From Clavelina lepadiformis (taxonomy: Eukaryota > Chordata > Ascidiacea > Aplousobranchia > Clavelinidae): a stretch of DNA of 64,000 nucleotides. A program made the position numbers and the translations under genes. Shown here piece after piece: positions 8,901 through 36,586 of this stretch. The notes beneath the pieces are model-generated. The model had not been told where the DNA came from, did not search any database, and was given only the letters and a program-made list of their open reading frames with translations. Location of the stretch: positions 1,056,501 through 1,120,500 of the forward strand of contig NC_135246.1 in the NCBI RefSeq assembly GCF_947623445.1. The letters are read 5' to 3'. Each line of letters starts with the position of its first letter. Position 1 is the stretch's first letter.

Positions 8901-11626
8901 ATCAACCACAGCGGAAACACCACCTGACCACGCATCCAATGAAACTAAACCTCTCCTGGAAAATGGAAATCTCGCAGATGATGGTGTCACCATGGAAATC
9001 GATAATCCTGGACATAAATCTGATAATAATAATATCACTGATAATCCTGAACCTTCCGTTGATGGTGAAGGACCTGATCCCCCAGCCGCATCACAAGATG
9101 AGTTGGAAGCAGAAAAACCTTCAACCGAAACACAAAACGGCGATGAATCTGATGGCATGTTATTTATTCTAAATTTGGAATGATTTTTAGCAAGTTTTTT
9201 TTTTATTCATTGGACGTCATCTGTATTCAACTCATTCATTTTCAGTTGATGAGATTCATGCAACACAAAAGAAGTTCAAAAAATTATCACCAAAGGATTT
9301 ATTTATCCACAATCAAGAAATGGAAACCCTACAAGAAGAAAATAAACCGAAATTGTTGGTCAGTTTCTATGTTAATCCCACACCAAAAATATCGCGGGAG
9401 TCGTGTTCTAACAACGTTGTTATACCAGTGTTTTAATGTCATGTTAGGTTGTATAAAGAGTTATTTAAAGTGATGTTTGTTCAAGGTGACTGCTCAGGCG
9501 AAAACAAAAAGCTTAAGCACGGATGGTGTCAGTGCGCCAAGCATAGCGACTACTTTCATGTTACCGCCTTGCATCGAGCAATTAGAAAAATGCGCAGAAG
9601 AACACGGATTTATTGCGGGGTATTTATTATCTCGTATATGACGTGGATATTACATTGAAAATTTTTGAAAATCGTTTGTTTGTCGTGAAACCTTACTCTA
9701 CAGAATTCCTGTATCCGCCAAAGATTCAAAAGGTGGAATTCACGAAGCAATGCAGTCTCTCATACGTCATGTCGTCAGCAAACGTCACGATACGTCAACA
9801 GAACGGAAACGTAAAACTGACGAAAGTACAAGTATGAGGTCCGAATTCAGTCAGGTGAAGAGGACGAAAAATCAGCAAAATCACACGTCGGCGAATGGAT
9901 TCAGTCAGTTGCGGGTGTGTTTGAAGTGACGCGGCAAACTGCTAAAAATCTATGTTTAAATTAAAGCAATTTTTTTCGCTTTGTATCAGATGGAGTTTGT
10001 ATTCGGTTAAGATTACTGTCAATCAAATGTAAGACTGGTGCTGTAGTTTAGAAGAGAATAGAACCAGCTCCGTTTTTAAGATGCTTTTTACTCACAGGAA
10101 GTGGGTGTCATTGAAATTGACGAGGTCTTAAAGAAGTGCAACGATGTTTTGAGAGAAGCTGATAATATGAACACGGCATACCGTGAATCTATCCACATTT
10201 TCAAGAAGGTTTGTCTGCTGTTTTCAACTAAACTACCCATTCTCTCTTTGTGTGTGTGTATCACAGTTAATATGTTTTACGTGCAATGCATTAACTTTCT
10301 GACTGTTCCGCAAACATTTGTGGCTTAATTCTTGTACCTTTTTCATTACTGGGCTCATTCGCTCATTCATTTTGTACCTAAAGCGGCGATTGTTAATTAA
10401 GACGATCGCATTGCTTTTCTGTGCACTGTTGTATAATTTTAGCTTGGTTGTGGTACTGGACGCTTCTCCGTTTGGACGTCAGCAAATAAATCTTTCTCCC
10501 CAGTAATTAACTTGTGAAAGTGGTTCACTGGGATACAGAGCATTAAAAGCAACATTTCGACATACAGGCCTGCTTTCAACGTCAACTGATCGGTAGCAGA
10601 CAAGCAAGTATTGAAGAATGTATTTCGGCCGTCAAGGATTCAGTGGAATCTCCGTCGTGGACAAATAATGGCACAAGCGATATTAGGGCCAAATTGTTAC
10701 GCGCTGAAGCAAAACCAGGTAATAATCTTTGTTTGCATATTCGTTGCCTCCTGTACTGGCTGTATACTAATTCATGTAACGGCAAGTTGAGACATTGAAC
10801 GTATGATCAGAGCTCCCAAGAAAACTCCCTATTAGTTTAGTCGCGCGTCATGCCGCTGTATTTTTGTTTATTCAGAGTTTAGACTGGTGACAATTGAAGA
10901 AGAGAATTTCCTTAATCTTTCGATTTCAAGCCTCAGCGATGGCGTAGATGGCAGGAACAATAAGAATGAAATCGCGCCACCTTCTGATTTACTTTTTATT
11001 CTCGGTATCTATCACGAAAAGGTAAAGACGGTTTTTATTCCCCCACCCTAGGTTTTAATTGCGTAATTATCCTTTAAAATTCTGCCCAGGTTCACAAGTC
11101 ATGCAGTAATGTGATGCTGTCTTCTGTGCAATTGGAGGAAGTTCTTCTTCAGCTGCATAAACAAATTTCAGCGAAAGAAGAGAATGTGAGCATTTCTCTG
11201 TCAAGTGTTTTCTTAAACTGATACAGCCGGTTGGGCACTTGAGCTTTAAAACATACTGTACCCATACTATTGCGCCAGTTTTCCTTACAACTGCCACTCA
11301 CGAACCAGCAACCGTGACGACGAAAAAATTACGCTATTGTAATAACTTTCTCCATTATTTCGTAATTGTACAACAAATTTCTACAAAAGTGAACTTTATT
11401 CGTAAGAAAAATATCATTGAAATCCTCCCCGCAACGAAATATTTTATTCCCACAGGCCTGGGACATCGCAGTAGCATCTGGTCTCTCCCAATCCAACGTC
11501 AAAGACATAATGGCGTGTTTAGCCCGAGCAAAAGTTCGCGTCAAGGGCACGGCGGACCAGCTCAAAGATACGAGACGGTCGGTGAAGGCGACACAGGCGA
11601 AGATTCGAGCTACTTTGTTGTTTTGA
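5975..11626 (+). CDS. Atypical Rab-like GTPase with acidic insert and helical tail (14 exons)
   Basis: Exons: 5975-6005, 6158-6308, 6483-6604, 7129-7261, 7913-7979, 8590-9154, 9246-9358, 9486-9619, 9704-9914, 10098-10208, 10568-10718, 10876-11021, 11090-11185 and 11456-11626. Phases join throughout, giving about 733 residues. Small-GTPase motifs are the P-loop GESTGGKS (29-36), WDVPDHE (79-85) at the G3 site, NKFD (164-167) and SAK (443-445). G3 normally reads WDTAGQE, so the Gly and catalytic Gln are replaced and hydrolysis is doubtful. Between G4 and G5 lies an insert of over 200 residues that is mostly Glu/Asp/Ser/Thr/Pro-rich. The N-terminus MGNGCTS fits N-myristoylation with a nearby Cys. 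Exons 10-14 encode a helix-rich tail ending ATLLF, with no prenylation cysteines. The G5 region resembles Rab32/Rab29. Exon 6 needs a GC donor at 9155. The exon 8 acceptor could instead be at 9498. Exact family unknown. Confidence 0.82.
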
Positions 11627-11745
11627 CTTTTTTTCCACTGTCACGTTGGAATCACTGTAAATTTTTTATCGTTTTGCAATATCGACAACTTTTAGAGCAA
11701 GGTGCACTTAATACATTGAAAATCACTTTATTTCTGGTACCTGGT

Positions 11746-12601
11746 TTAACCTGGGATTAATCCCATGCCTTGTAACGCTGCAGTTGCCGCTTGTGACTTC
11801 GCTAGTTTCTTGTTCATCGACGCTACAGAAGGTTGATAGAATGTATCGTTCACTCGAACCTGAACAGGCAACGCAGCAGAAAATAATTGTACATTTAACG
11901 TTGATCACTGATTTAGTTTTCTTGATTTTAAGAGGTTCGTCACGTCATAACATGGGTGCAATTTCTAAGGAACTAAACATGACTGCGGCAGTACATTAGC
12001 AGCATTAATATTAACAATGAAGTATACAAAGCAGGGTCCAGAACACAAACCTTAAACATGAAACTTCGACTGTGATCTGGTCCCGAGTTCAAGACAAGAA
12101 CAAAGTCCGGCGGCTTCCATCTTCTCTTGCTGCAGATTTCCATCAGAGCACTCACCGGGTGCTTTCCCGATAAATCTCTCACCACTGGGTGTGTCTTTGC
12201 TACGGGGGGTGTGGATGTGGGGCCCTCCATCATGCTGCTTAACCCTGGTATAAAATATTTTTCAACCAACTGTGAAAATACGAAGTTCAAGAGAGTTCAT
12301 TAAAGTCAGTGATTTTTAACATTTTAAAGGGCTTTGCGAACCTGTAGCTGGTTTCGTAACCAATCAACGGAAATAAACAAAGGTATTTACGAGGTATTAT
12401 ACATTCAGTTAATATCTGCATCCATGCATTCTCCGCAATTGCTCAGTGGCTTTTACCTTTCCTATCAGTCTTCACATTGACGCGAAGCGGTTCGAGCATG
12501 CCCACGTTGGTCTTCCCCAGGGATTCACCCTCCTTCCACCCCATCTTCTGCAGCAGGCACTTCCCGATGCCGCCAACTTGTTGCCCCGCGTTCAAGGTTT
12601 C
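11746..12601 (-). pseudogene. Orphan SON 3' exons, unit 0
   Basis: This copy holds the three terminal SON exons: G-patch 12601-12457, dsRBM first half 12244-12051 and dsRBM second half 11859-11746. Splice sites and frame are all intact. There is no SON 5' part to the right, because the next unit begins instead. AATAAA on the minus strand at 11732-11727 follows the stop by 14 nt. The stop lies 119 bp from the GTPase stop, tail to tail. Confidence 0.85.
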
Positions 12602-13676
12602 CTGGTAAAGGTGAATAATTGTCGATATTCGACATGATACTGCTCGGGATTGCTTTCATTATGAACGATATGTGTTAAATTAAGTATACGTATGAAGAGG
12701 CATGCAAGACTTTCCTTCGTTACACAAACCCGTTTTGTACGTATTTAAAAAGACAAAGAGTGAAATAACGTTAGGCAAAGCTCTTTTGCTACTCTGTTCA
12801 CATCACATCGGTATCTTCCAGCTCTTCTTTTGTGAAAGTTCCGATGAACAGACAGTTTTGATTTTTTGTTATATTGCACAAATGTGGAACTGCTCGTCAG
12901 GAATACTGAACAGGAGCAAATGTCGTTCATAATTAGCTCAGGGATATTCAAGGGTATTGCATCAACAGCGTAACTACGATTCGAGCCCAGCTCATATACA
13001 CTATTTACGAGCCAAGCAGGTTGATCGAGCTGACACATTTCTCCGAATATGATTGTAAAATCTAAGTAGCAGCAAAGAAGCTTTGCCTAATGTTACCAAC
13101 TGTTGACAAAAGACAGTGTTGGATCCTCATAAAATTCTGTTTTAATTTCTTCTTGCTGGTTGGAGCTGAAAAAAATCCAAGTTAATATGATGCTACAAGC
13201 TGTTTGTGGGCTTATGAAGGACAATTTGCTTCATTTGAGACAAAACCGACACAACAGTCACTTAGGATAGAAGCTGTTTTCAACAAACTCCAACAATTGA
13301 ATTTGTCAATTCAATAAAAGAGCTATGATTAGCACGCCACTGCTGTTTATATTGAAGTATTATAAACCCTGGCAATTTGGTCGACATTATGTTTTCTGCA
13401 TTTCTATGAAATTGATATTTCTATGGGACATTTCTATGAAATGAATGCTGTGTCACAATGCAGCCCATAAACAGCATTATTACACAGCTTGATTAGAACC
13501 TTGGTTAGAGACATACGATACAAACAATCATCAGCTATGTATCCAAGCACATAATACTCTGGCGTAATCACAAAATAAGTCTGATATTTTCAAGTTCATC
13601 ACCATTTTTTCTCCATTCTCCTGGTAAGCTGATGTTTATTTTTTACCAACGGCACGTAACACTTGATATTTTTTAA

Positions 13677-14139
13677 GGGGTCATATCCCAATTCAAAGAG
13701 ATAGGCTTTTTAATGCAAAGTACATTAAATCAAGAAGCTACCAACGCAAAACTACATGATAAACCTACCATGAATTTTGGATTGCAACGAGATCTAGGTT
13801 ATGACTTATGACTGTCTGCAGTCTTAATTTGGACAAAATCCATGTAGGCCTACTCAGTTTTCTATAACAGCTGCCTAAACTTTACAACAAGTTTTTAGCT
13901 TAAAATTTTAGGACAAATACTCCAAAATACCAAAAATTCAAACCCACACAAAATTCACAACTTAGCCTAGACCTGGAACCAGCTGTCGCCAAAACAACAA
14001 CAAATTACTCCGTATCGACGTCACATGCGCATTGGACCGGAAAATTTCTTACTCTTTTTAATATGACGCATTGAGTGCGAACACGCAACAATCACCGGGT
14101 TGCCGGCTCAAAATTGTCTTTCCATTGGCAAGTGACCCC
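13677..14139. mobile_element. TTAA-bounded junction segment, unit 0/1
   Basis: This 463-bp segment lies between TTAA at 13673-13676 and TTAA at 14140-14143. Its ends read GGGGTCA and TGACCCC inverted, so with TTAA there is an 11-bp inverted match. This looks like a piggyBac-type MITE (TTAA target duplication), but the termini are not those of a family I can name. The segment occurs only at internal unit junctions. Its right TTAA fuses exactly to GTPase exon 8 sequence. An ATG at 14071 is in frame with that exon. Confidence 0.6.
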
Positions 14140-16254
14140 TTAAGCACGGATGGTGTCAGTGCGCCAAGTATAGCGACTACTTTCATGTTACCGCCTTGCA
14201 TCGAGCAATTAGAAAAATGCGCAGAAGAACACGGATTTATTGCGGGGTATTTCTTATCTCGTACTGTATATGACGTCGATATTACATTCAAAATTTTTGT
14301 AAATCGTTTTGTTTGTACCTTACCTTGCAGAATTCCTGTATCCGCCAAAGATTCAAAAGGTGGAATTCACGAAGCAATGCAGTCTCTCATACGTCATGTC
14401 GTCAGCAAACGTCACGATACGTCAACAGAACGGAAACGTAAAACTGACGAAAGTACAAGTATGAGGTCCGAATTCAGTCAGGTGAAGAGGACGAAAAATC
14501 AGCAAAATCACACGTCGGTGAATGGATTCAGTCAGTTGCGGGTGTGTTTGAAGTGACGTTGCAAACTGCAAAAAATCTATGTTTAAATTAAAGCAATTTT
14601 TTTCGCTTTGTATCAGATGGAGTTTGTATTCGGTTAAGATTACTGTCAATCAAATGTAAGACTGGTGCTGTAGTTCAAAAGAGAATAGGACCAGCTCCGT
14701 TTGTTAAGATGCTTTTTACTCACAGGAAGTGGGTGTTATAGAAATTGACGAGGTCTTAAAGAAGTGCAACGATGTTTTGAGAGAAGCTGATAATATGAAC
14801 ACGGCATACCGTGAATCTATCCACATTTTCAAGAAGGTTTGTCAGCTGTTTGCAACTAGATCACCCATTTTCTCTTTGTGTGTGTGTATCACAGTTAATA
14901 TGTTTTACGTGAAATGCATTAACTTTCTGACTGTTCCGCAAACATTTGTGGCTTAATTCTTGTACCTTTTTCATTACTGGGCTCATTCGCTCATTCATTT
15001 TGTACCTAAAGCGGCGATTGTTAATTAAGATGATCGCATTGGTTTTCTGTGCACTGTTGTATAATTTTAGCTTGGTTGTGGTACTGGAAGCTTCTCCGTT
15101 TGGACGTCAGCAAATAAATCTTTCTCCCCAGTAATTAACTTGTGAAAGTGGTTCACTGGGATACAGAGCATTAAAAGCAACATTTCGACATACAGGCCTG
15201 CTTTCAACGTCAACTGATCGGTAGCAGACAAGCAAGTATTGAAGAATGTATTTCGGCCGTCAAGGATTCAGTGGAATCTCCGTCGTGGACAAATAATGGC
15301 ACAAGCGATATTAGGGCCAAATTGTTACGCGCTGAAGCAAAACCAGGTAATAATCTTTGTTTGCATATTCGTTGCCTCCTGTACTGGCTGTATACTAATT
15401 CATGTAACGGCAAGTTCAGACATTGAACGTATGATCAGAGCTCCCAAGAAAACTCCCTATTAGTTTAGTCGCGCGTCATGCCGCTGTCTTTTTGTTTATT
15501 CAGAGTTTAGACTGGTGACAATTGAAGAAGAGAAATTCCTCAATCTTTCAATTTCAAGCCTCAGTGATCGCGTAGATGGCAGGAACAATAAGAATGAAAT
15601 CGCGCCACCTTCCGGTTTACTTTTTATTCTCGGTATCTATCACGAAAAGGTAAAGACGGTTTTTATTCCCCCACCCTAGGTTTTAATTGCGTAATTATCC
15701 TTTAAAATTCTGCCCAGGTTCACAAGTCATGCAGTAATGTGATGCTGTCTTCTGTGCAATTGGAGGAAGTTCTTCTTCAGCTGCATAAACAAATTTCAGC
15801 GAAAGAAGAGAATGTGAGCATTTCTCTGTCAAGTGTTTTCTTAAACTGATACAGCCGGTTGGGCACTTGAGCTTTAAAACATACTGTACCCATACTATTG
15901 CGCCAGTTTTCCTTACAACTGCCACTCACGAACCAGCAACCGTGACGACGAAAAAATTACGCTATTGTAATAACTTTCTCCATTATTTCGTAATTGTACA
16001 ACAAATTTCTACAAAAGTGAACTTTATTCGTAAGAAAAATATCATTGAAATCCTCCCCGCAACGAAATATTTTATTCCCACAGGCCTGGGACATCGCAGT
16101 AGCATCTGGTCTCTCCCAATCCAACGTCAAAGACATAATGGCGTGTTTAGCCCGAGCAAAAGTTCGCGTCAAGGGCACGGCGGACCAGCTCAAAGATACG
16201 AGACGGTCGGTGAAGGCGACACAGGCGAAGATTCGAGCTACTTTGTTGTTTTGA
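14071..16254 (+). CDS. Candidate truncated GTPase-tail gene, unit 1
   Basis: A new ATG at 14071 in the junction segment reads in frame into GTPase exon 8 (14140-14246). It can splice on through exons 9-14 to the TGA at 16254, giving about 353 residues that lack the G1-G4 motifs. All splice sites match the parent gene. Intron 8 is 84 bp and open in this copy, so an unspliced reading also gives a 161-residue frame (14071-14556) ending in exon 9 read-through. Relative to unit 0 there are missense changes, including Asn to Lys, Gly to Arg and Asp to Gly in exon 12. Expression is unproven, and it may simply be an orphan fragment. Confidence 0.45.
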
Positions 16255-16373
16255 CTTTTTTTCCACTGTCACGTTGGAATCACTGTAAATTTTTTATCCT
16301 TTTGCAATATCGACAACTTTTAGAGCAAGGTGCACTTAATACATTGAAAATCACTTTATTTCTGGTACCTGGT

Positions 16374-17229
16374 TTAACCTGGGATTAATCCCATGCCTTG
16401 TAACGCTGCAGTTGCCGCTTGTGACTTCGCTAGTTTCTTGTTCATCGACGCTACAGAAGGTTGATAGAATGTATCGTTCACTCGAACCTGAACAGGCAAC
16501 GCAGCAGAAAATAATTGTACATTTAACGTTGATCACTGATTTAGTTTTCTTGATTTTAAGAGGTTCGTCACGTCATAACATGGGTGCAATTTCTAAGGAA
16601 CTAAACATGACTGCGGCAGTACATTAGCAGCATTAATATTAACAATGAAGTATACAAAGCAGGGTCCAGAACACAAACCTTAAACATGAAACTTCGACTG
16701 TGATCTGGTCCCGAGTTCAAGACAAGAACAAAGTCCGGCGGCTTCCATCTTCTCTTGCTGCAGATTTCCATCAGAGCACTCACCGGGTGCTTTCCCGATA
16801 AATCTCTCACCACTGGGTGTGTCTTTGCTACGGGGGGTGTGGATGTGGGGCCCTCCATCATGCTGCTTAACCCTGGTATAAAATATTTTTCAACCAACTG
16901 TGAAAATACGAAGTTCAAGAGAGTTCATTAAAGTCAGTGATTTTTAACATTTTAAAGGGCTTTGCGAACCTGTAGCTGGTTTCGTAACCAATCAACGGAA
17001 ATAAACAAAGGTATTTACGAGGTATTATACATTCAGTTAATATCTGCATCCATGCATTCTCCGCAATTGCTCAGTGGCTTTTACCTTTCCTATCAGTCTT
17101 CACATTGACGCGAAGCGGTTCGAGCATGCCCACGTTGGTCTTCCCCAGGGATTCACCCTCCTTCCACCCCATCTTCTGCAGCAGGCACTTCCCGATGCCG
17201 CCAACTTGTTGCCCCGCGTTCAAGGTTTC
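16374..17229 (-). pseudogene. Orphan SON 3' exons, unit 1
   Basis: This is the same three-exon block as in unit 0, with the G-patch and dsRBM exons open and splice sites kept. No upstream SON exons are attached. The G-patch exon flank is the unit 0 type (acceptor side reads GTGAATAATTGTCGATATTC on the plus strand). Confidence 0.85.
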
Positions 17230-18304
17230 CTGGTAAAGGTGAATAATTGTCGATATTCGACATGATACTGCTCGGGATTGCTTTCATTATGAACGATATG
17301 TGTTAAATTAAGTATACGTATGAAGAGGCATGCAAGACTTTCCTTCGTTACACAAACCCGTTTTGTACGTATTTAAAAAGACAAAGAGTGAAATAACGTT
17401 AGGCAAAGCTCTTTTGCTACTCTGTTCACATCACATCGGTATCTTCCAGCTCTTCTTTTGTGAAAGTTCCGATGAACAGACAGTTTTGATTTTTTGTTAT
17501 ATTGCACAAATGTGGAACTGCTCGTCAGGAATACTGAACAGGAGCAAATGTCGTTCATAATTAGCTCAGGGATATTCAAGGGTATTGCATCAACAGCGTA
17601 ACTACGATTCGAGCCCAGCTCATATACACTATTTACGAGCCAAGCAGGTTGATCGAGCTGACACATTTCTCCGAATATGATTGTAAAATCTAAGTAGCAG
17701 CAAAGAAGCTTTGCCTAATGTTACCAACTGTTGACAAAAGACAGTGTTGGATCCTCATAAAATTCTGTTTTAATTTCTTCTTGCTGGTTGGAGCTGAAAA
17801 AAATCCAAGTTAATATGATGCTACAAGCTGTTTGTGGGCTTATGAAGGACAATTTGCTTCATTTGAGACAAAACCGACACAACAGTCACTTAGGATAGAA
17901 GCTGTTTTCAACAAACTCCAACAATTGAATTTGTCAATTCAATAAAAGAGCTATGATTAGCACGCCACTGCTGTTTATATTGAAGTATTATAAACCCTGG
18001 CAATTTGGTCGACATTATGTTTTCTGCATTTCTATGAAATTGATATTTCTATGGGACATTTCTATGAAATGAATGCTGTGTCACAATGCAGCCCATAAAC
18101 AGCATTATTACACAGCTTGATTAGAACCTTGGTTAGAGACATACGATACAAACAATCATCAGCTATGTATCCAAGCACATAATACTCTGGCGTAATCACA
18201 AAATAAGTCTGATATTTTCAAGTTCATCACCATTTTTTCTCCATTCTCCTGGTAAGCTGATGTTTATTTTTTACCAACGGCACGTAACACTTGATATTTT
18301 TTAA

Positions 18305-18767
18305 GGGGTCATATCCCAATTCAAAGAGATAGGCTTTTTAATGCAAAGTACATTAAATCAAGAAGCTACCAACGCAAAACTACATGATAAACCTACCATG
18401 AATTTTGGATTGCAACGAGATCTAGGTTATGACTTATGACTGTCTGCAGTCTTAATTTGGACAAAATCCATGTAGGCCTACTCAGTTTTCTATAACAGCT
18501 GCCTAAACTTTACAACAAGTTTTTAGCTTAAAATTTTAGGACAAATACTCCAAAATACCAAAAATTCAAACCCACACAAAATTCACAACTTAGCCTAGAC
18601 CTGGAACCAGCTGTCGCCAAAACAACAACAAATTACTCCGTATCGACGTCACATGCGCATTGGACCGGAAAATTTCTTACTCTTTTTAATATGACGCATT
18701 GAGTGCGAACACGCAACAATCACCGGGTTGCCGGCTCAAAATTGTCTTTCCATTGGCAAGTGACCCC
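18305..18767. mobile_element. TTAA-bounded junction segment, unit 1/2
   Basis: This copy is 463 bp, the long form seen at the first junction, again bounded by TTAA and fused to exon 8 sequence at its right end. Confidence 0.6.
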
Positions 18768-20882
18768 TTAAGCACGGATGGTGTCAGTGCGCCAAGTATA
18801 GCGACTACTTTCATGTTACCGCCTTGCATCGAGCAATTAGAAAAATGCGCAGAAGAACACGGATTTATTGCGGGGTATTTCTTATCTCGTACTGTATATG
18901 ACGTCGATATTACATTCAAAATTTTTGTAAATCGTTTTGTTTGTACCTTACCTTGCAGAATTCCTGTATCCGCCAAAGATTCAAAAGGTGGAATTCACGA
19001 AGCAATGCAGTCTCTCATACGTCATGTCGTCAGCAAACGTCACGATACGTCAACAGAACGGAAACGTAAAACTGACGAAAGTACAAGTATGAGGTCCGAA
19101 TTCAGTCAGGTGAAGAGGACGAAAAATCAGCAAAATCACACGTCGGTGAATGGATTCAGTCAGTTGCGGGTGTGTTTGAAGTGACGTTGCAAACTGCAAA
19201 AAATCTATGTTTAAATTAAAGCAATTTTTTTCGCTTTGTATCAGATGGAGTTTGTATTCGGTTAAGATTACTGTCAATCAAATGTAAGACTGGTGCTGTA
19301 GTTCAAAAGAGAATAGGACCAGCTCCGTTTGTTAAGATGCTTTTTACTCACAGGAAGTGGGTGTTATAGAAATTGACGAGGTCTTAAAGAAGTGCAACGA
19401 TGTTTTGAGAGAAGCTGATAATATGAACACGGCATACCGTGAATCTATCCACATTTTCAAGAAGGTTTGTCAGCTGTTTGCAACTAGATCACCCATTTTC
19501 TCTTTGTGTGTGTGTATCACAGTTAATATGTTTTACGTGAAATGCATTAACTTTCTGACTGTTCCGCAAACATTTGTGGCTTAATTCTTGTACCTTTTTC
19601 ATTACTGGGCTCATTCGCTCATTCATTTTGTACCTAAAGCGGCGATTGTTAATTAAGATGATCGCATTGGTTTTCTGTGCACTGTTGTATAATTTTAGCT
19701 TGGTTGTGGTACTGGAAGCTTCTCCGTTTGGACGTCAGCAAATAAATCTTTCTCCCCAGTAATTAACTTGTGAAAGTGGTTCACTGGGATACAGAGCATT
19801 AAAAGCAACATTTCGACATACAGGCCTGCTTTCAACGTCAACTGATCGGTAGCAGACAAGCAAGTATTGAAGAATGTATTTCGGCCGTCAAGGATTCAGT
19901 GGAATCTCCGTCGTGGACAAATAATGGCACAAGCGATATTAGGGCCAAATTGTTACGCGCTGAAGCAAAACCAGGTAATAATCTTTGTTTGCATATTCGT
20001 TGCCTCCTGTACTGGCTGTATACTAATTCATGTAACGGCAAGTTCAGACATTGAACGTATGATCAGAGCTCCCAAGAAAACTCCCTATTAGTTTAGTCGC
20101 GCGTCATGCCGCTGTCTTTTTGTTTATTCAGAGTTTAGACTGGTGACAATTGAAGAAGAGAAATTCCTCAATCTTTCAATTTCAAGCCTCAGTGATCGCG
20201 TAGATGGCAGGAACAATAAGAATGAAATCGCGCCACCTTCCGGTTTACTTTTTATTCTCGGTATCTATCACGAAAAGGTAAAGACGGTTTTTATTCCCCC
20301 ACCCTAGGTTTTAATTGCGTAATTATCCTTTAAAATTCTGCCCAGGTTCACAAGTCATGCAGTAATGTGATGCTGTCTTCTGTGCAATTGGAGGAAGTTC
20401 TTCTTCAGCTGCATAAACAAATTTCAGCGAAAGAAGAGAATGTGAGCATTTCTCTGTCAAGTGTTTTCTTAAACTGATACAGCCGGTTGGGCACTTGAGC
20501 TTTAAAACATACTGTACCCATACTATTGCGCCAGTTTTCCTTACAACTGCCACTCACGAACCAGCAACCGTGACGACGAAAAAATTACGCTATTGTAATA
20601 ACTTTCTCCATTATTTCGTAATTGTACAACAAATTTCTACAAAAGTGAACTTTATTCGTAAGAAAAATATCATTGAAATCCTCCCCGCAACGAAATATTT
20701 TATTCCCACAGGCCTGGGACATCGCAGTAGCATCTGGTCTCTCCCAATCCAACGTCAAAGACATAATGGCGTGTTTAGCCCGAGCAAAAGTTCGCGTCAA
20801 GGGCACGGCGGACCAGCTCAAAGATACGAGACGGTCGGTGAAGGCGACACAGGCGAAGATTCGAGCTACTTTGTTGTTTTGA
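18699..20882 (+). CDS. Candidate truncated GTPase-tail gene, unit 2
   Basis: Same structure as the unit 1 copy: new ATG at 18699 in the junction segment, GTPase exons 8-14 intact, stop at 20882. The translated exons match unit 1. It has no recognisable promoter other than whatever the junction segment may supply. Confidence 0.45.
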
Positions 20883-23325: not shown

Positions 23326-25440
23326 TTAAGCACGGATGGTGTCAGTGCGCCAAGTATAGCGACTACTTTCATGTTACCGCCTTGCATCGAGCAATTAGAA
23401 AAATGCGCAGAAGAACACGGATTTATTGCGGGGTATTTCTTATCTCGTACTGTATATGACGTCGATATTACATTCAAAATTTTTGTAAATCGTTTTGTTT
23501 GTACCTTACCTTGCAGAATTCCTGTATCCGCCAAAGATTCAAAAGGTGGAATTCACGAAGCAATGCAGTCTCTCATACGTCATGTCGTCAGCAAACGTCA
23601 CGATACGTCAACAGAACGGAAACGTAAAACTGACGAAAGTACAAGTATGAGGTCCGAATTCAGTCAGGTGAAGAGGACGAAAAATCAGCAAAATCACACG
23701 TCGGTGAATGGATTCAGTCAGTTGCGGGTGTGTTTGAAGTGACGTTGCAAACTGCAAAAAATCTATGTTTAAATTAAAGCAATTTTTTTCGCTTTGTATC
23801 AGATGGAGTTTGTATTCGGTTAAGATTACTGTCAATCAAATGTAAGACTGGTGCTGTAGTTCAAAAGAGAATAGGACCAGCTCCGTTTGTTAAGATGCTT
23901 TTTACTCACAGGAAGTGGGTGTTATAGAAATTGACGAGGTCTTAAAGAAGTGCAACGATGTTTTGAGAGAAGCTGATAATATGAACACGGCATACCGTGA
24001 ATCTATCCACATTTTCAAGAAGGTTTGTCAGCTGTTTGCAACTAGATCACCCATTTTCTCTTTGTGTGTGTGTATCACAGTTAATATGTTTTACGTGAAA
24101 TGCATTAACTTTCTGACTGTTCCGCAAACATTTGTGGCTTAATTCTTGTACCTTTTTCATTACTGGGCTCATTCGCTCATTCATTTTGTACCTAAAGCGG
24201 CGATTGTTAATTAAGATGATCGCATTGGTTTTCTGTGCACTGTTGTATAATTTTAGCTTGGTTGTGGTACTGGAAGCTTCTCCGTTTGGACGTCAGCAAA
24301 TAAATCTTTCTCCCCAGTAATTAACTTGTGAAAGTGGTTCACTGGGATACAGAGCATTAAAAGCAACATTTCGACATACAGGCCTGCTTTCAACGTCAAC
24401 TGATCGGTAGCAGACAAGCAAGTATTGAAGAATGTATTTCGGCCGTCAAGGATTCAGTGGAATCTCCGTCGTGGACAAATAATGGCACAAGCGATATTAG
24501 GGCCAAATTGTTACGCGCTGAAGCAAAACCAGGTAATAATCTTTGTTTGCATATTCGTTGCCTCCTGTACTGGCTGTATACTAATTCATGTAACGGCAAG
24601 TTCAGACATTGAACGTATGATCAGAGCTCCCAAGAAAACTCCCTATTAGTTTAGTCGCGCGTCATGCCGCTGTCTTTTTGTTTATTCAGAGTTTAGACTG
24701 GTGACAATTGAAGAAGAGAAATTCCTCAATCTTTCAATTTCAAGCCTCAGTGATCGCGTAGATGGCAGGAACAATAAGAATGAAATCGCGCCACCTTCCG
24801 GTTTACTTTTTATTCTCGGTATCTATCACGAAAAGGTAAAGACGGTTTTTATTCCCCCACCCTAGGTTTTAATTGCGTAATTATCCTTTAAAATTCTGCC
24901 CAGGTTCACAAGTCATGCAGTAATGTGATGCTGTCTTCTGTGCAATTGGAGGAAGTTCTTCTTCAGCTGCATAAACAAATTTCAGCGAAAGAAGAGAATG
25001 TGAGCATTTCTCTGTCAAGTGTTTTCTTAAACTGATACAGCCGGTTGGGCACTTGAGCTTTAAAACATACTGTACCCATACTATTGCGCCAGTTTTCCTT
25101 ACAACTGCCACTCACGAACCAGCAACCGTGACGACGAAAAAATTACGCTATTGTAATAACTTTCTCCATTATTTCGTAATTGTACAACAAATTTCTACAA
25201 AAGTGAACTTTATTCGTAAGAAAAATATCATTGAAATCCTCCCCGCAACGAAATATTTTATTCCCACAGGCCTGGGACATCGCAGTAGCATCTGGTCTCT
25301 CCCAATCCAACGTCAAAGACATAATGGCGTGTTTAGCCCGAGCAAAAGTTCGCGTCAAGGGCACGGCGGACCAGCTCAAAGATACGAGACGGTCGGTGAA
25401 GGCGACACAGGCGAAGATTCGAGCTACTTTGTTGTTTTGA
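23257..25440 (+). CDS. Candidate truncated GTPase-tail gene, unit 3
   Basis: New ATG at 23257, GTPase exons 8-14, stop at 25440. The translated exons match units 1 and 2. Expression is unproven. Confidence 0.45.
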
Positions 25441-25559
25441 CTTTTTTTCCACTGTCACGTTGGAATCACTGTAAATTTTTTATCCTTTTGCAATATCGAC
25501 AACTTTTAGAGCAAGGTGCACTTAATACATTGAAAATCACTTTATTTCTGGTACCTGGT

Positions 25560-26415
25560 TTAACCTGGGATTAATCCCATGCCTTGTAACGCTGCAGTTG
25601 CCGCTTGTGACTTCGCTAGTTTCTTGTTCATCGACGCTACAGAAGGTTGATAGAATGTATCGTTCACTCGAACCTGAACAGGCAACGCAGCAGAAAATAA
25701 TTGTACATTTAACGTTGATCACTGATTTAGTTTTCTTGATTTTAAGAGGTTCGTCACGTCATAACATGGGTGCAATTTCTAAGGAACTAAACATGACTGC
25801 GGCAGTACATTAGCAGCATTAATATTAACAATGAAGTATACAAAGCAGGGTCCAGAACACAAACCTTAAACATGAAACTTCGACTGTGATCTGGTCCCGA
25901 GTTCAAGACAAGAACAAAGTCCGGCGGCTTCCATCTTCTCTTGCTGCAGATTTCCATCAGAGCACTCACCGGGTGCTTTCCCGATAAATCTCTCACCACT
26001 GGGTGTGTCTTTGCTACGGGGGGTGTGGATGTGGGGCCCTCCATCATGCTGCTTAACCCTGGTATAAAATATTTTTCAACCAACTGTGAAAATACGCAGT
26101 TCAAGAGAGTTCATTAAAGTCAGTGATTTTTAACATTTTAAAGGGCTTTGCGAACCTGTAACTGGTTTCGTAACCAATCAACGGAAATAAACAAAGGTAT
26201 TTACGAGGTATTATACATTCAGTTAATATCTGCATCCATGCATTCTCCGCAATTGCTCAGTGGCTTTTACCTTTCCTATCAGTCTTCACATTGACGCGAA
26301 GCGGTTCGAGCATGCCCACGTTGGTCTTCCCCAGGGATTCACCCTCCTTCCACCCCATCTTCTGCAGCAGGCACTTCCCGATGCCGCCAACTTGTTGCCC
26401 CGCGTTCAAGGTTTC
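25560..26415 (-). pseudogene. Orphan SON 3' exons, unit 3
   Basis: The three terminal SON exons are intact and of the unit 2 variant. They have no 5' gene attached. Confidence 0.85.
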
Positions 26416-27455
26416 CTGGTAAAGGCGAATAATTGTCGAAATTCGAGATGATACTGGCCGGAATTGCTTTCATTATGAACGATATGTGTTAAATTAAGTA
26501 TACGTATGAAGAGGCATGCAAGACTTTCCTTCGTTACACAAACCCGTTTTGTACGTATTTAAAAAGACAAAGAGTGAAATAACGTTAGGCAAAGCTCTTT
26601 TGCTACTCTGTTCACATCACATCGGTATCTTCCTTCTTCTTTTGTGAAAGTTCCGATGAACAGACAGTTTTGATTTTTTGTTATATTGCACAACTGTGGA
26701 ACTGCTGGTCAGGAATACTGAACAGGAGCAAGTGTCGTTCATAATTAGCTCAGGGTATTTAAGGGTGTTGCATCAACAGCGTAACTGCTATTCAAGCCTA
26801 GTTCACATACACTATTTATGAGCCAGCCAGGTGGATCGAGCTGACACATTTCTCCGAATATGATTGTCAAATCTAAGTAGTAGCAAAGGAGCTTTGCCTA
26901 AGGTTACCAACTGTTGACAAAAGACAGTGTTGGATCCTCATAAAATTCTGTTTTAATTTCTTCTTGCTGGTTTGAGCTGAAAAAAATCCAAGTTAATATG
27001 ATGCTACAAGCTGTTTGTGGGCTTATAAAGGACAATTTGCTTCATTTGAAACAAAAACGACACAACATGCAGTCACTTAGGATAGAAGCTGTTTTAAAGA
27101 ATTTCAACAATTGAATTTGTCAATTCAATAAAAGAGCTATGATTAGCACGCCATTGTTGTTTATATTGAGATATTATAAACCCTGGCCATTTGGTCGACA
27201 TTTTCTTTTCTGCATTTCTATGAATGTTGTGTCACAATGCAGCCCATAAACAGCATTATTACACGGCTTGATTAGAACCTTGGTTAGAGACATACGACAC
27301 AAACAATCATTAGCTATGTACCCAAGCACATAATACTCTGGCGTAATCACAAAATAAGTCTGACATTTTCAAGTTCATCACCATTTTTTCTCCATTCTCC
27401 TGGTAAGCTGATGTTTATTTTTTACTAACTGCACGTAACACTTGATATTTTTTAA

Positions 27456-27883
27456 GGGGTCATATCCCAATTCAAAGAGATAGGCTTTTCAATGCAAAGT
27501 ACATTAAATCAAGAAGCTGCCATGAATTTTGGATTGCAACCAGATCTAGGTTATGACTGCCTACAGTCTTAATTTGGACAAAACCCAAGTACTCAGTATT
27601 CTATAACAACTGCCTAAACTTTACAACAAGTTTTTAGCTTAAAATTTTAGGACAAGTACTCCAAAATACCAAAAATTCAAACCCACACAAAATTCACAAC
27701 TTAGCCTAGACCTAGAACCAGCTCAAGCTGTCGCCAAAACAACAAAAAACTACTCGTATCGACGTCACATGCGCATTGGACCGGAAAATTTCTTACTCTT
27801 TTTAATATGACGCATTGAGTGCGAACACGCAACAATCACCGGGTTGCCGGCTCAAAATTGTCTTTCCATTGGCAAGTGACCCC
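27456..27883. mobile_element. TTAA-bounded junction segment, unit 3/4
   Basis: Short 428-bp form, fused to exon 8 sequence at its right TTAA. Confidence 0.6.
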
Positions 27884-29998
27884 TTAAGCACGGATGGTGT
27901 CAGTGCGCCAAGTATAGCGACTACTTTCATGTTACCGCCTTGCATCGAGCAATTAGAAAAATGCGCAGAAGAACACGGATTTATTGCGGGGTATTTCTTA
28001 TCTCGTACTGTATATGACGTCGATATTACATTCAAAATTTTTGTAAATCGTTTTGTTTGTACCTTACCTTGCAGAATTCCTGTATCCGCCAAAGATTCAA
28101 AAGGTGGAATTCACGAAGCAATGCAGTCTCTCATACGTCATGTCGTCAGCAAACGTCACGATACGTCAACAGAACGGAAACGTAAAACTGACGAAAGTAC
28201 AAGTATGAGGTCCGAATTCAGTCAGGTGAAGAGGACGAAAAATCAGCAAAATCACACGTCGGTGAATGGATTCAGTCAGTTGCGGGTGTGTTTGAAGTGA
28301 CGTTGCAAACTGCAAAAAATCTATGTTTAAATTAAAGCAATTTTTTTCGCTTTGTATCAGATGGAGTTTGTATTCGGTTAAGATTACTGTCAATCAAATG
28401 TAAGACTGGTGCTGTAGTTCAAAAGAGAATAGGACCAGCTCCGTTTGTTAAGATGCTTTTTACTCACAGGAAGTGGGTGTTATAGAAATTGACGAGGTCT
28501 TAAAGAAGTGCAACGATGTTTTGAGAGAAGCTGATAATATGAACACGGCATACCGTGAATCTATCCACATTTTCAAGAAGGTTTGTCAGCTGTTTGCAAC
28601 TAGATCACCCATTTTCTCTTTGTGTGTGTGTATCACAGTTAATATGTTTTACGTGAAATGCATTAACTTTCTGACTGTTCCGCAAACATTTGTGGCTTAA
28701 TTCTTGTACCTTTTTCATTACTGGGCTCATTCGCTCATTCATTTTGTACCTAAAGCGGCGATTGTTAATTAAGATGATCGCATTGGTTTTCTGTGCACTG
28801 TTGTATAATTTTAGCTTGGTTGTGGTACTGGAAGCTTCTCCGTTTGGACGTCAGCAAATAAATCTTTCTCCCCAGTAATTAACTTGTGAAAGTGGTTCAC
28901 TGGGATACAGAGCATTAAAAGCAACATTTCGACATACAGGCCTGCTTTCAACGTCAACTGATCGGTAGCAGACAAGCAAGTATTGAAGAATGTATTTCGG
29001 CCGTCAAGGATTCAGTGGAATCTCCGTCGTGGACAAATAATGGCACAAGCGATATTAGGGCCAAATTGTTACGCGCTGAAGCAAAACCAGGTAATAATCT
29101 TTGTTTGCATATTCGTTGCCTCCTGTACTGGCTGTATACTAATTCATGTAACGGCAAGTTCAGACATTGAACGTATGATCAGAGCTCCCAAGAAAACTCC
29201 CTATTAGTTTAGTCGCGCGTCATGCCGCTGTCTTTTTGTTTATTCAGAGTTTAGACTGGTGACAATTGAAGAAGAGAAATTCCTCAATCTTTCAATTTCA
29301 AGCCTCAGTGATCGCGTAGATGGCAGGAACAATAAGAATGAAATCGCGCCACCTTCCGGTTTACTTTTTATTCTCGGTATCTATCACGAAAAGGTAAAGA
29401 CGGTTTTTATTCCCCCACCCTAGGTTTTAATTGCGTAATTATCCTTTAAAATTCTGCCCAGGTTCACAAGTCATGCAGTAATGTGATGCTGTCTTCTGTG
29501 CAATTGGAGGAAGTTCTTCTTCAGCTGCATAAACAAATTTCAGCGAAAGAAGAGAATGTGAGCATTTCTCTGTCAAGTGTTTTCTTAAACTGATACAGCC
29601 GGTTGGGCACTTGAGCTTTAAAACATACTGTACCCATACTATTGCGCCAGTTTTCCTTACAACTGCCACTCACGAACCAGCAACCGTGACGACGAAAAAA
29701 TTACGCTATTGTAATAACTTTCTCCATTATTTCGTAATTGTACAACAAATTTCTACAAAAGTGAACTTTATTCGTAAGAAAAATATCATTGAAATCCTCC
29801 CCGCAACGAAATATTTTATTCCCACAGGCCTGGGACATCGCAGTAGCATCTGGTCTCTCCCAATCCAACGTCAAAGACATAATGGCGTGTTTAGCCCGAG
29901 CAAAAGTTCGCGTCAAGGGCACGGCGGACCAGCTCAAAGATACGAGACGGTCGGTGAAGGCGACACAGGCGAAGATTCGAGCTACTTTGTTGTTTTGA
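27815..29998 (+). CDS. Candidate truncated GTPase-tail gene, unit 4
   Basis: New ATG at 27815, GTPase exons 8-14, stop at 29998. The translated exons match units 1-3. Expression is unproven. Confidence 0.45.
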
Positions 29999-30117
29999 CT
30001 TTTTTTCCACTGTCACGTTGGAATCACTGTAAATTTTTTATCCTTTTGCAATATCGACAACTTTTAGAGCAAGGTGCACTTAATACATTGAAAATCACTT
30101 TATTTCTGGTACCTGGT

Positions 30118-30973
30118 TTAACCTGGGATTAATCCCATGCCTTGTAACGCTGCAGTTGCCGCTTGTGACTTCGCTAGTTTCTTGTTCATCGACGCTACAG
30201 AAGGTTGATAGAATGTATCGTTCACTCGAACCTGAACAGGCAACGCAGCAGAAAATAATTGTACATTTAACGTTGATCACTGATTTAGTTTTCTTGATTT
30301 TAAGAGGTTCGTCACGTCATAACATGGGTGCAATTTCTAAGGAACTAAACATGACTGCGGCAGTACATTAGCAGCATTAATATTAACAATGAAGTATACA
30401 AAGCAGGGTCCAGAACACAAACCTTAAACATGAAACTTCGACTGTGATCTGGTCCCGAGTTCAAGACAAGAACAAAGTCCGGCGGCTTCCATCTTCTCTT
30501 GCTGCAGATTTCCATCAGAGCACTCACCGGGTGCTTTCCCGATAAATCTCTCACCACTGGGTGTGTCTTTGCTACGGGGGGTGTGGATGTGGGGCCCTCC
30601 ATCATGCTGCTTAACCCTGGTATAAAATATTTTTCAACCAACTGTGAAAATACGCAGTTCAAGAGAGTTCATTAAAGTCAGTGATTTTTAACATTTTAAA
30701 GGGCTTTGCGAACCTGTAACTGGTTTCGTAACCAATCAACGGAAATAAACAAAGGTATTTACGAGGTATTATACATTCAGTTAATATCTGCATCCATGCA
30801 TTCTCCGCAATTGCTCAGTGGCTTTTACCTTTCCTATCAGTCTTCACATTGACGCGAAGCGGTTCGAGCATGCCCACGTTGGTCTTCCCCAGGGATTCAC
30901 CCTCCTTCCACCCCATCTTCTGCAGCAGGCACTTCCCGATGCCGCCAACTTGTTGCCCCGCGTTCAAGGTTTC
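30118..30973 (-). pseudogene. Orphan SON 3' exons, unit 4
   Basis: The three terminal SON exons are intact and of the unit 2 variant. They have no 5' gene attached. Confidence 0.85.
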
Positions 30974-32013
30974 CTGGTAAAGGCGAATAATTGTCGAAAT
31001 TCGAGATGATACTGGCCGGAATTGCTTTCATTATGAACGATATGTGTTAAATTAAGTATACGTATGAAGAGGCATGCAAGACTTTCCTTCGTTACACAAA
31101 CCCGTTTTGTACGTATTTAAAAAGACAAAGAGTGAAATAACGTTAGGCAAAGCTCTTTTGCTACTCTGTTCACATCACATCGGTATCTTCCTTCTTCTTT
31201 TGTGAAAGTTCCGATGAACAGACAGTTTTGATTTTTTGTTATATTGCACAACTGTGGAACTGCTGGTCAGGAATACTGAACAGGAGCAAGTGTCGTTCAT
31301 AATTAGCTCAGGGTATTTAAGGGTGTTGCATCAACAGCGTAACTGCTATTCAAGCCTAGTTCACATACACTATTTATGAGCCAGCCAGGTGGATCGAGCT
31401 GACACATTTCTCCGAATATGATTGTCAAATCTAAGTAGTAGCAAAGGAGCTTTGCCTAAGGTTACCAACTGTTGACAAAAGACAGTGTTGGATCCTCATA
31501 AAATTCTGTTTTAATTTCTTCTTGCTGGTTTGAGCTGAAAAAAATCCAAGTTAATATGATGCTACAAGCTGTTTGTGGGCTTATAAAGGACAATTTGCTT
31601 CATTTGAAACAAAAACGACACAACATGCAGTCACTTAGGATAGAAGCTGTTTTAAAGAATTTCAACAATTGAATTTGTCAATTCAATAAAAGAGCTATGA
31701 TTAGCACGCCATTGTTGTTTATATTGAGATATTATAAACCCTGGCCATTTGGTCGACATTTTCTTTTCTGCATTTCTATGAATGTTGTGTCACAATGCAG
31801 CCCATAAACAGCATTATTACACGGCTTGATTAGAACCTTGGTTAGAGACATACGACACAAACAATCATTAGCTATGTACCCAAGCACATAATACTCTGGC
31901 GTAATCACAAAATAAGTCTGACATTTTCAAGTTCATCACCATTTTTTCTCCATTCTCCTGGTAAGCTGATGTTTATTTTTTACTAACTGCACGTAACACT
32001 TGATATTTTTTAA

Positions 32014-32441
32014 GGGGTCATATCCCAATTCAAAGAGATAGGCTTTTCAATGCAAAGTACATTAAATCAAGAAGCTGCCATGAATTTTGGATTGCAACCA
32101 GATCTAGGTTATGACTGCCTACAGTCTTAATTTGGACAAAACCCAAGTACTCAGTATTCTATAACAACTGCCTAAACTTTACAACAAGTTTTTAGCTTAA
32201 AATTTTAGGACAAGTACTCCAAAATACCAAAAATTCAAACCCACACAAAATTCACAACTTAGCCTAGACCTAGAACCAGCTCAAGCTGTCGCCAAAACAA
32301 CAAAAAACTACTCGTATCGACGTCACATGCGCATTGGACCGGAAAATTTCTTACTCTTTTTAATATGACGCATTGAGTGCGAACACGCAACAATCACCGG
32401 GTTGCCGGCTCAAAATTGTCTTTCCATTGGCAAGTGACCCC
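32014..32441. mobile_element. TTAA-bounded junction segment, unit 4/5
   Basis: Short 428-bp form, the last copy. Unit 5 ends without one. Confidence 0.6.
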
Positions 32442-34556
32442 TTAAGCACGGATGGTGTCAGTGCGCCAAGTATAGCGACTACTTTCATGTTACCGCCTTG
32501 CATCGAGCAATTAGAAAAATGCGCAGAAGAACACGGATTTATTGCGGGGTATTTCTTATCTCGTACTGTATATGACGTCGATATTACATTCAAAATTTTT
32601 GTAAATCGTTTTGTTTGTACCTTACCTTGCAGAATTCCTGTATCCGCCAAAGATTCAAAAGGTGGAATTCACGAAGCAATGCAGTCTCTCATACGTCATG
32701 TCGTCAGCAAACGTCACGATACGTCAACAGAACGGAAACGTAAAACTGACGAAAGTACAAGTATGAGGTCCGAATTCAGTCAGGTGAAGAGGACGAAAAA
32801 TCAGCAAAATCACACGTCGGTGAATGGATTCAGTCAGTTGCGGGTGTGTTTGAAGTGACGTTGCAAACTGCAAAAAATCTATGTTTAAATTAAAGCAATT
32901 TTTTTCGCTTTGTATCAGATGGAGTTTGTATTCGGTTAAGATTACTGTCAATCAAATGTAAGACTGGTGCTGTAGTTCAAAAGAGAATAGGACCAGCTCC
33001 GTTTGTTAAGATGCTTTTTACTCACAGGAAGTGGGTGTTATAGAAATTGACGAGGTCTTAAAGAAGTGCAACGATGTTTTGAGAGAAGCTGATAATATGA
33101 ACACGGCATACCGTGAATCTATCCACATTTTCAAGAAGGTTTGTCAGCTGTTTGCAACTAGATCACCCATTTTCTCTTTGTGTGTGTGTATCACAGTTAA
33201 TATGTTTTACGTGAAATGCATTAACTTTCTGACTGTTCCGCAAACATTTGTGGCTTAATTCTTGTACCTTTTTCATTACTGGGCTCATTCGCTCATTCAT
33301 TTTGTACCTAAAGCGGCGATTGTTAATTAAGATGATCGCATTGGTTTTCTGTGCACTGTTGTATAATTTTAGCTTGGTTGTGGTACTGGAAGCTTCTCCG
33401 TTTGGACGTCAGCAAATAAATCTTTCTCCCCAGTAATTAACTTGTGAAAGTGGTTCACTGGGATACAGAGCATTAAAAGCAACATTTCGACATACAGGCC
33501 TGCTTTCAACGTCAACTGATCGGTAGCAGACAAGCAAGTATTGAAGAATGTATTTCGGCCGTCAAGGATTCAGTGGAATCTCCGTCGTGGACAAATAATG
33601 GCACAAGCGATATTAGGGCCAAATTGTTACGCGCTGAAGCAAAACCAGGTAATAATCTTTGTTTGCATATTCGTTGCCTCCTGTACTGGCTGTATACTAA
33701 TTCATGTAACGGCAAGTTCAGACATTGAACGTATGATCAGAGCTCCCAAGAAAACTCCCTATTAGTTTAGTCGCGCGTCATGCCGCTGTCTTTTTGTTTA
33801 TTCAGAGTTTAGACTGGTGACAATTGAAGAAGAGAAATTCCTCAATCTTTCAATTTCAAGCCTCAGTGATCGCGTAGATGGCAGGAACAATAAGAATGAA
33901 ATCGCGCCACCTTCCGGTTTACTTTTTATTCTCGGTATCTATCACGAAAAGGTAAAGACGGTTTTTATTCCCCCACCCTAGGTTTTAATTGCGTAATTAT
34001 CCTTTAAAATTCTGCCCAGGTTCACAAGTCATGCAGTAATGTGATGCTGTCTTCTGTGCAATTGGAGGAAGTTCTTCTTCAGCTGCATAAACAAATTTCA
34101 GCGAAAGAAGAGAATGTGAGCATTTCTCTGTCAAGTGTTTTCTTAAACTGATACAGCCGGTTGGGCACTTGAGCTTTAAAACATACTGTACCCATACTAT
34201 TGCGCCAGTTTTCCTTACAACTGCCACTCACGAACCAGCAACCGTGACGACGAAAAAATTACGCTATTGTAATAACTTTCTCCATTATTTCGTAATTGTA
34301 CAACAAATTTCTACAAAAGTGAACTTTATTCGTAAGAAAAATATCATTGAAATCCTCCCCGCAACGAAATATTTTATTCCCACAGGCCTGGGACATCGCA
34401 GTAGCATCTGGTCTCTCCCAATCCAACGTCAAAGACATAATGGCGTGTTTAGCCCGAGCAAAAGTTCGCGTCAAGGGCACGGCGGACCAGCTCAAAGATA
34501 CGAGACGGTCGGTGAAGGCGACACAGGCGAAGATTCGAGCTACTTTGTTGTTTTGA
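32373..34556 (+). CDS. Candidate truncated GTPase-tail gene, unit 5
   Basis: New ATG at 32373, GTPase exons 8-14, stop at 34556. This orphan lies tail to tail with the functional SON 3' end (stop codons 119 bp apart), so its transcript would overlap real SON mRNA. The translated exons match units 1-4. Confidence 0.45.
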
Positions 34557-36586
34557 CTTTTTTTCCACTGTCACGTTGGAATCACTGTAAATTTTTTATC
34601 CTTTTGCAATATCGACAACTTTTAGAGCAAGGTGCACTTAATACATTGAAAATCACTTTATTTCTGGTACCTGGTTTAACCTGGGATTAATCCCATGCCT
34701 TGTAACGCTGCAGTTGCCGCTTGTGACTTCGCTAGTTTCTTGTTCATCGACGCTACAGAAGGTTGATAGAATGTATCGTTCACTCGAACCTGAACAGGCA
34801 ACGCAGCAGAAAATAATTGTACATTTAACGTTGATCACTGATTTAGTTTTCTTGATTTTAAGAGGTTCGTCACGTCATAACATGGGTGCAATTTCTAAGG
34901 AACTAAACATGACTGCGGCAGTACATTAGCAGCATTAATATTAACAATGAAGTATACAAAGCAGGGTCCAGAACACAAACCTTAAACATGAAACTTCGAC
35001 TGTGATCTGGTCCCGAGTTCAAGACAAGAACAAAGTCCGGCGGCTTCCATCTTCTCTTGCTGCAGATTTCCATCAGAGCACTCACCGGGTGCTTTCCCGA
35101 TAAATCTCTCACCACTGGGTGTGTCTTTGCTACGGGGGGTGTGGATGTGGGGCCCTCCATCATGCTGCTTAACCCTGGTATAAAATATTTTTCAACCAAC
35201 TGTGAAAATACGCAGTTCAAGAGAGTTCATTAAAGTCAGTGATTTTTAACATTTTAAAGGGCTTTGCGAACCTGTAACTGGTTTCGTAACCAATCAACGG
35301 AAATAAACAAAGGTATTTACGAGGTATTATACATTCAGTTAATATCTGCATCCATGCATTCTCCGCAATTGCTCAGTGGCTTTTACCTTTCCTATCAGTC
35401 TTCACATTGACGCGAAGCGGTTCGAGCATGCCCACGTTGGTCTTCCCCAGGGATTCACCCTCCTTCCACCCCATCTTCTGCAGCAGGCACTTCCCGATGC
35501 CGCCAACTTGTTGCCCCGCGTTCAAGGTTTCCTGGTAAAGGCGAATAATTGTCGAAATTCGAGATGATACTGGCCGGAATTGCTTTCATTATGAACGATA
35601 TGTGTTAAATTAAGTATACGTATGAAGAGGCATGCAAGACTTTCCTTCGTTACACAAACCCGTTTTGTACGTATTTAAAAAGACAAAGAGTGAAATAACG
35701 TTAGGCAAAGCTCTTTTGCTACTCTGTTCACATCACATCGGTATCTTCCAGCTCTTCTTTTGTGAAAGTTCCGATGAACAGACAGTTTTGATTTTTTGTT
35801 ATATTGCACAAATGTGGAACTGCTGGTCAGGAATACTGAACAGGAGCAAGTGTCATTCATAATTAGCTCAGGGTATTCAAGGGTATTGCATCAACAGCGT
35901 AACTACGATTCGAGTCCAGCTCATATACACTATTTACGAGCCAAGCAGGTTGATCGAGCTGACACATTTCTCCAAATATGATTGTAAAATCTAAGTAGCA
36001 GCAAAGAAGCTTTGCCTAATGTTACGAACTGTTGACAAAAGACAGTGTTGGATCCTCATAAAATTCTGTTTTAATTTCTTCTTGCTGGTTTGAGCTGAAA
36101 AAAATCCAAGTTAATATGATGCTACAAGCTGTTTGTGGGCTTATGAAGGACAATTTGCTTCATTTGAAACAAAAACGACACAACATGCAGTCACTTAGGA
36201 TAGAAGCTGTTTTCAACAAACTCCAACAATTGAATTTGTCAATTCAATAAAAGAGCTATGATTAGCACGCCATTGCTGTTTATATTGAAGTATTATAAAC
36301 CCTGGCAATTTGGTTTTGTTTTCTGCATTTCTATGAAATTGGTATTTCTATGGGACCTTTCTATGAAATGAATGTTGTGTCACAATGCAGCCCATAAACA
36401 GCATTATTATTTATTACACAGCTTGATTAGAACCTTGGTTAGAGACATACGACACAAACAACCATCAGCTGTGTATCCAAGCACATAATACTCTGGCGTA
36501 ATCACAAAATAAGTCTGACATTTTCAAGTTCATCACCATTTTTTTCCATTCTCCTGGTAAGCTGATGTTTATTTTTTACTAACGGC
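32442..36586. repeat. Tandem array unit 5 (rightmost)
   Basis: Homology to the other units runs to about 36586 (after TTACTAACGGCA) and then stops. The sequence continues into unique SON intron instead of a junction segment. Its SON exons are the functional ones because the SON 5' exons lie just to the right. Its intron sequence (about 35750-36586) differs from units 2-4 and is closer to units 0/1 in places. The GTPase exons here are orphans. Confidence 0.92.

Follow-up and report, generated by a model that had tools for sequence, protein, structure and literature searches.

A tandem array of two joined gene ends in Clavelina lepadiformis carries a dispersed inverted-repeat element at every joint

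The window analysed here is a 64-kb stretch of the Clavelina lepadiformis genome (C7:1056501-1120500), in which a Rab/Ras-like GTPase gene on the forward strand and a SON-type gene on the reverse strand lie tail to tail. A single tandem array at 9512-36587 contains six copies of a segment of about 4.1 kb, referred to as U, which spans the 3' ends of both genes, and each of the five joints between copies is occupied by a dispersed repeat, referred to as R, that resembles a miniature inverted-repeat transposable element (MITE). On balance, the array probably arose as a direct tandem duplication with a TTAA-flanked R at the joint, was expanded by unequal crossing-over, and was mixed by exchange between haplotypes.

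The array was delimited by self-comparison of the window, and the starts of the U copies and the array end were read from the self-alignment (Table 1). Successive units are spaced by 4627, 4628, 4558, 4558 and 4558 bp, with 96.7-98.7% identity in shifted self-alignments, and the last copy measures 4147 bp. The order is U-R-U-R-U-R-U-R-U-R-U, with outer ends that lack R, and copy 6 is shorter because it lacks the spacer of 449-484 bp that follows every other copy. The copies lie head to tail and both array ends join single-copy flanks, as in a direct tandem segmental duplication. Across the assembly searched (209 Mb, 95 contigs), full-length matches to U were present only inside the array, constituting 6 of the 40 matches listed, with the other 34 being short diverged repeats; no alternate haplotype of the locus in the primary assembly was found among these 40. 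A preliminary description made from the sequence alone had proposed a six-copy array with one breakpoint in each gene, and the self-comparison confirms this, placing the left edge (TTAA at 9513) inside the GTPase exon 9486-9619 and the right edge in the SON intron between exon 36650-36755 and the G-patch exon 35387-35531. The unit of about 4.6 kb made from two gene ends, also proposed there, stands as the repeat period, but the unit is not U alone, and both the R at each joint and the mosaic nature of the copies had been missed.

U contains the last GTPase exons on the forward strand and the last three SON exons on the reverse strand. In a hand-made splice model, an open GTPase frame of 2202 bases, stop included, runs through copy 1, with one proposed donor (after 9154) reading GC instead of GT. 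The product matches Pfam Ras (PF00071, E 2.3e-16), and its best PDB matches include Rab-7L1, Rab-38 and Rab-32. For the 3' SON exons modelled, the frame is unbroken from exon 36650-36755 through copy 6 to the stop, and the product matches Pfam G-patch and dsrm; from this pairing of a G-patch with a double-stranded RNA-binding domain (dsRBD), we take the gene to be of SON type. The continuous frames at both outer joins bear out the earlier claim that the leftmost copy completes the GTPase gene and the rightmost copy completes SON, and the array contains five orphan tails of each gene, as previously counted. The sparing of both genes had been regarded as unusual, which is incorrect: the left flank stays on the first copy and the right flank stays on the last, and so both genes keep a whole copy. 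Survival of the two genes is therefore automatic in any direct tandem duplication, by virtue of its geometry, and requires no selection. An intron of SON also contains, at 37055-37300, a dispersed repeat of about 230 bp that is present in at least 39 other places at 85-96% identity. No known structured RNA was detected in the window at Rfam gathering scores, and no tRNA was detected by ARAGORN.

The spacers at the five joints consist mostly of R and have a common structure: a 22-bp sequence ending in TTAA, then R, then a TTAA that constitutes the first four bases of U, with the C ahead of this TTAA being common to the end of R. R is 463 bp in length at joints 1 and 2 and 428 bp at joints 3-5, starts with GGGGTCA, ends with the inverted TGACCCC, and has TTAA on both sides at every joint. 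The right TTAA of R is exactly the left breakpoint of the duplication. An R inserted in the SON intron of a single-copy chromosome would be expected after CACTTGATATTTT. No other source of the 22-bp sequence was found, given that 11 other places are listed in the assembly, each with 3 mismatches, and the five joints are exact; nor did a search of the window with R identify further copies beyond the five joints. R is dispersed in the genome (544 first-look candidates, of which 40 were scored) and is flanked elsewhere mostly by TTAA, with some loci possessing TTCA or TGAA, or unequal sides. A TTAA target site duplication is present at many of 30 R loci, several of which come from one array, and at the window joints. 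Judged by its structure, R is MITE-like: it is short and dispersed, with terminal inverted repeats and a target site duplication. Its TTAA target resembles that of piggyBac or Kolobok.

Table 1. Positions of the array copies, joint components and host genes in the window
Feature	Position	Strand	Remarks
Rab/Ras-like GTPase gene	5975..11626	+	14 exons proposed by hand; completed by copy 1
U copy 1	9512..13654		GTPase tail (+) in use, SON tail (-) orphan; left own type E, right type A
22-bp junction sequence ending TTAA	13655..13676; also at 18283, 22876, 27434, 31992		all five joints
R type A, joint 1	13677..14139	+	463 bp
U copy 2	14139..18282		left type B, right type A
R type A, joint 2	18305..18767	+	
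U copy 3	18767..22875		left type B, right type C
R type C, joint 3	22898..23325	+	428 bp; same as type A over about last 130 bp
U copy 4	23325..27433		with spacer, identical to copies 3 and 5 over 4558 bp
R type C, joint 4	27456..27883	+	
U copy 5	27883..31991		identical to copies 3 and 4
R type C, joint 5	32014..32441	+	
U copy 6	32441..36587		left type B, right type D; completes SON; GTPase tail orphan
SON-type gene, 3' end	34676..36755	-	last four exons (G-patch and dsRBD); completed by copy 6; gene extends rightward

The six copies of U are mosaics of a few sequence types. Copies 3, 4 and 5 show no difference over 4558 bp, nor do copies 2-6 over their first 2.77 kb; differences between copies 1 and 2 are confined to 9512-10987 plus site 11671, and the right parts of the copies fall into types A (copies 1 and 2), C (copies 3-5) and D (copy 6). 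This combination of identical copies and mosaic patterns shows homogenisation or exchange among the copies. Between an A joint and a C joint, the U part differs at 9 of 616 and 42 of 827 sites (51/1443 in total), the 22-bp piece at 0 of 22, R at 13 of 334 in its first part and 0 of 133 in the rest, and the next U at 0 of 2795. Ten indels separate the two joint types, all in the U and left-R part, with the last at the switch itself. The switch between junction types falls inside R and looks like a recombination point; R and the SON-intron side would then be older than the GTPase side at the joints. Comparison with 13 other R copies had suggested that two R subfamilies are fused at the switch; this was not upheld with 28 others, a set from which the fragments L055 and L056 and repeats from one same array were left out. 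One mixed sign is left: over its first ~55 bp R matches the main family, and members of its nearest subgroup (L017, L045, L047, L051) either end differently or do not align.

Seven synonymous and four nonsynonymous changes separate copy 1 from copy 2 in the GTPase exons, where copies 2-6 are alike. The ratio of nonsynonymous to synonymous rates (dN/dS) is 0.16 by simple count, with a binomial probability of 0.003 against equal rates, and across 9512-11000 there are differences at 11 of 705 exonic and 25 of 777 noncoding sites. Given this dN/dS, the diverged copies resemble distinct functional alleles that were combined in one array, and the copy-1 GTPase differences look like older allelic variation between working alleles rather than the decay of an orphan.

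R is also associated with arrays elsewhere in the genome. A sample of 93 R places was assembled by pooling printed matches, leaving out the window copies and merging places of one element, and it consists of best-scoring matches, which favours young arrays. Within this sample, 56 places have a same-strand R neighbour within 12 kb, forming 14 clusters, compared with 0.5 clustered places expected under random placement and a maximum of 6 in 2000 trials. The three most regular arrays supply 24 of the 56 (C4, 10; C7:19.02 Mb, 10; C8:2.36 Mb, 4), and the periods of regular clusters are 2309 bp on C7, 2485 bp on C4 and C8, and 11,426 bp on C3. The association of R with arrays is clear; that R is their cause is not clear. 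R may tentatively be viewed as a general amplifier, in which recombination between its copies would repeatedly turn the DNA lying between a pair of insertions, including pieces of genes, into tandem arrays on the kilobase scale genome-wide, with the GTPase/SON array as a young and still changing case. No R was found between direct duplications of unique DNA elsewhere within the 1.5-kb flanks of 38 loci, apart from the R-spacer arrays and a duplication at C6:14.34 Mb, although longer units would escape such a scan; the scan otherwise gave only a 67-bp inverted match, 75% alike, in L004-L006.

The C7 array (C7:19016937-19041694; L020-L027, L030, L032) has ten printed R places with spacings of 5631 bp, 2496 bp and then seven of 2309 bp, and its spacer contains internal repeats about 159 bp apart. 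Its outer flanks are CTGAA on the 5' side and TGAAG on the 3' side, as if the whole 24.7-kb array had one TGAA target duplication. The arrays at C4:23956337-23978831 and C8:2354956-2362540 (L058, L061, L065-L069) have a common 2485-bp R-spacer unit on two chromosomes, and the three outer edges read (the last R of each and the first R on C8) are TTAA beside unshared DNA. It appears that a unit bounded by R moved and then expanded.

The founding event that we favour would begin with R inserted at two sites: the SON intron on some chromosomes, and the GTPase exon on another homologue. An ectopic exchange between these two R copies would yield U-R-U with outer ends lacking R, TTAA on each side and two alleles on one chromosome, and later unequal exchange among U and R copies would bring the number to about six. 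The layout of alternating U and R ending in U, the restriction of R to the five joints within 64 kb, and the coincidence of the R end with the left breakpoint all argue for this origin, as do the change of junction type within R, the low dN/dS between copies 1 and 2, and the same-strand clustering of R elsewhere. Several observations weigh against this origin. The 22-bp sequence that flanks R is absent from copy 6, which calls for a further deletion or for filler DNA at the joint. Over 10988-12282 the six copies are the same except at one site, which is odd for two alleles unless they were homogenised later by exchange, and among the 28 other R copies compared the same R subgroup is the nearest kin on both sides of the switch. 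The C7 (19.02 Mb), C4 and C8 (2.36 Mb) arrays end in R where the outer edge was read, unlike the window array, and the C6:14.34 Mb duplication has R inside the unit, not at the joint, which rules out that R is always at duplication joints.

The main rival to a founding exchange is a later arrival of R, in which ordinary transposition would have inserted it into a TTAA of an existing joint with about 18 bp of filler, before the dimer expanded. TTAA on both sides of R is the product of a normal insertion, and the 22-bp sequence is exact only at the joints, as filler would be. Such an insertion would, however, have had to land on the joint TTAA when 37 TTAA sites are present in 9512-13676, a chance of about 1/37. 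R and the adjoining SON intron moreover differ by 4-5% between joint types and the next U not at all, which would require an old dimer with a homogenised right side, and we consider later insertion a somewhat unlikely, if credible, origin. An aberrant transposition, in which the ends of R in the SON intron attacked the TTAA of the GTPase exon on the sister chromatid, as in the reversed-ends transposition of maize Ac/Ds, would account for a breakpoint that lies exactly at a MITE end and its target motif. Reversed-ends transposition makes tandem direct duplications with endpoints at element ends, as described in PMC3744419, yet the cases presented there also have an element at one outer end of the duplication, where the window array has none. 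The motif itself cannot discriminate, since TTAA is common to most R insertions seen, and this route is unlikely. The exchange between two R insertions is preferred to both.

The preliminary description had also raised the possibility of an assembly artefact. This concern is justified for the copy count, in that 18639-35749 is a perfect 4558-bp periodic repeat of 17.1 kb (run 18639-31191 at shift 4558). The published account of the assembly, kaClaLepa1.1 (nine chromosomes, 210.1 Mb, 102 scaffolds; PMC10884593), describes DNA sheared to an average of 12-20 kb, assembly with hifiasm and purge_dups from 117-fold HiFi coverage, and incomplete phasing. Because of the long perfect repeat, the shearing and the phasing, the count of six is unsafe, as is the placement of types A, C and D on one chromosome. 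An error in which two haplotype arrays were walked as one path, producing the count and perhaps the mix of junction types, is nevertheless quite improbable: copies 1, 2, 3-5 and 6 can be told apart by their variants, gene structure is normal across both outer joins to single-copy DNA, the U-R-U joints demand some tandem copies, and the HiFi coverage is deep. That several tandem copies exist is fairly safe, and variation in copy number between individuals is plausible from the identity of units 3, 4 and 5 over 4558 bp. A functional array, providing alternative 3' ends or antisense control for both genes, might be suggested by the orphan tails, given that all five GTPase tails keep an open frame of 331 codons including the stop, and that the three coding exons of the five orphan SON tails do not differ from those of copy 6 and keep their AG/GT splice dinucleotides. 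The copies are so alike, particularly copies 2-6 over their first 2.77 kb, that the open frames indicate youth rather than use or selection, and the orphan GTPase tails lack an acceptor of their own for the cut exon, which was lost because the breakpoint lies inside that exon. A function of this kind is highly improbable; the orphan tails, for which no role was found, are probably passengers.

Three known systems resemble the array in part. The ace-1 amplification of Anopheles gambiae, a direct tandem array with a 203-kb unit and variable copy number, likewise combines direct tandem copies with diverged alleles on one chromosome, and a Harbinger transposase locus overlaps one of its breakpoints (PMC5137868). 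The window array differs from it in its 4.6-kb unit, which contains gene tails only, in the whole MITE-like element at each joint, and in having no known selection. Maize Ac/Ds reversed-ends duplications (PMC3744419) also have a breakpoint formed by an element end and a target site, whereas the window array lacks an outer-end element, involves a TTAA element and displays no reciprocal deletion. MITE-derived satellite arrays, as reviewed in PMC9659126, are comparable in that R also forms regular arrays of kilobase period elsewhere in the genome; in the window, however, a segment of host genes, not satellite DNA, forms the spacer, and U rather than R stands at the outer ends. Among the titles listed in literature searches touching on MITE arrays or ascidians, none concerned this array or R, which is no proof of absence. 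If R-mediated exchange is the cause, the genome offers joints of different ages at which to watch a small non-autonomous element convert paired insertions into changes in the copy number of gene fragments. Caution is also due when genes are counted near such arrays, since the five extra GTPase and five extra SON tails are probably passengers and their annotation as genes needs expression evidence.

Outside the array, an inverted repeat of about 780 bp, 97% alike (55591-56369 and 57249-58026), lies beside an open reading frame with a CENP-B N-terminal domain (54983-55540); together these are presumably a pogo/Tigger-like element. The window also contains a 39-bp minisatellite of 3.4 copies at 51456-51589 and, on the reverse strand at 53489-54196, a 235-residue open reading frame with several C2H2 zinc fingers.

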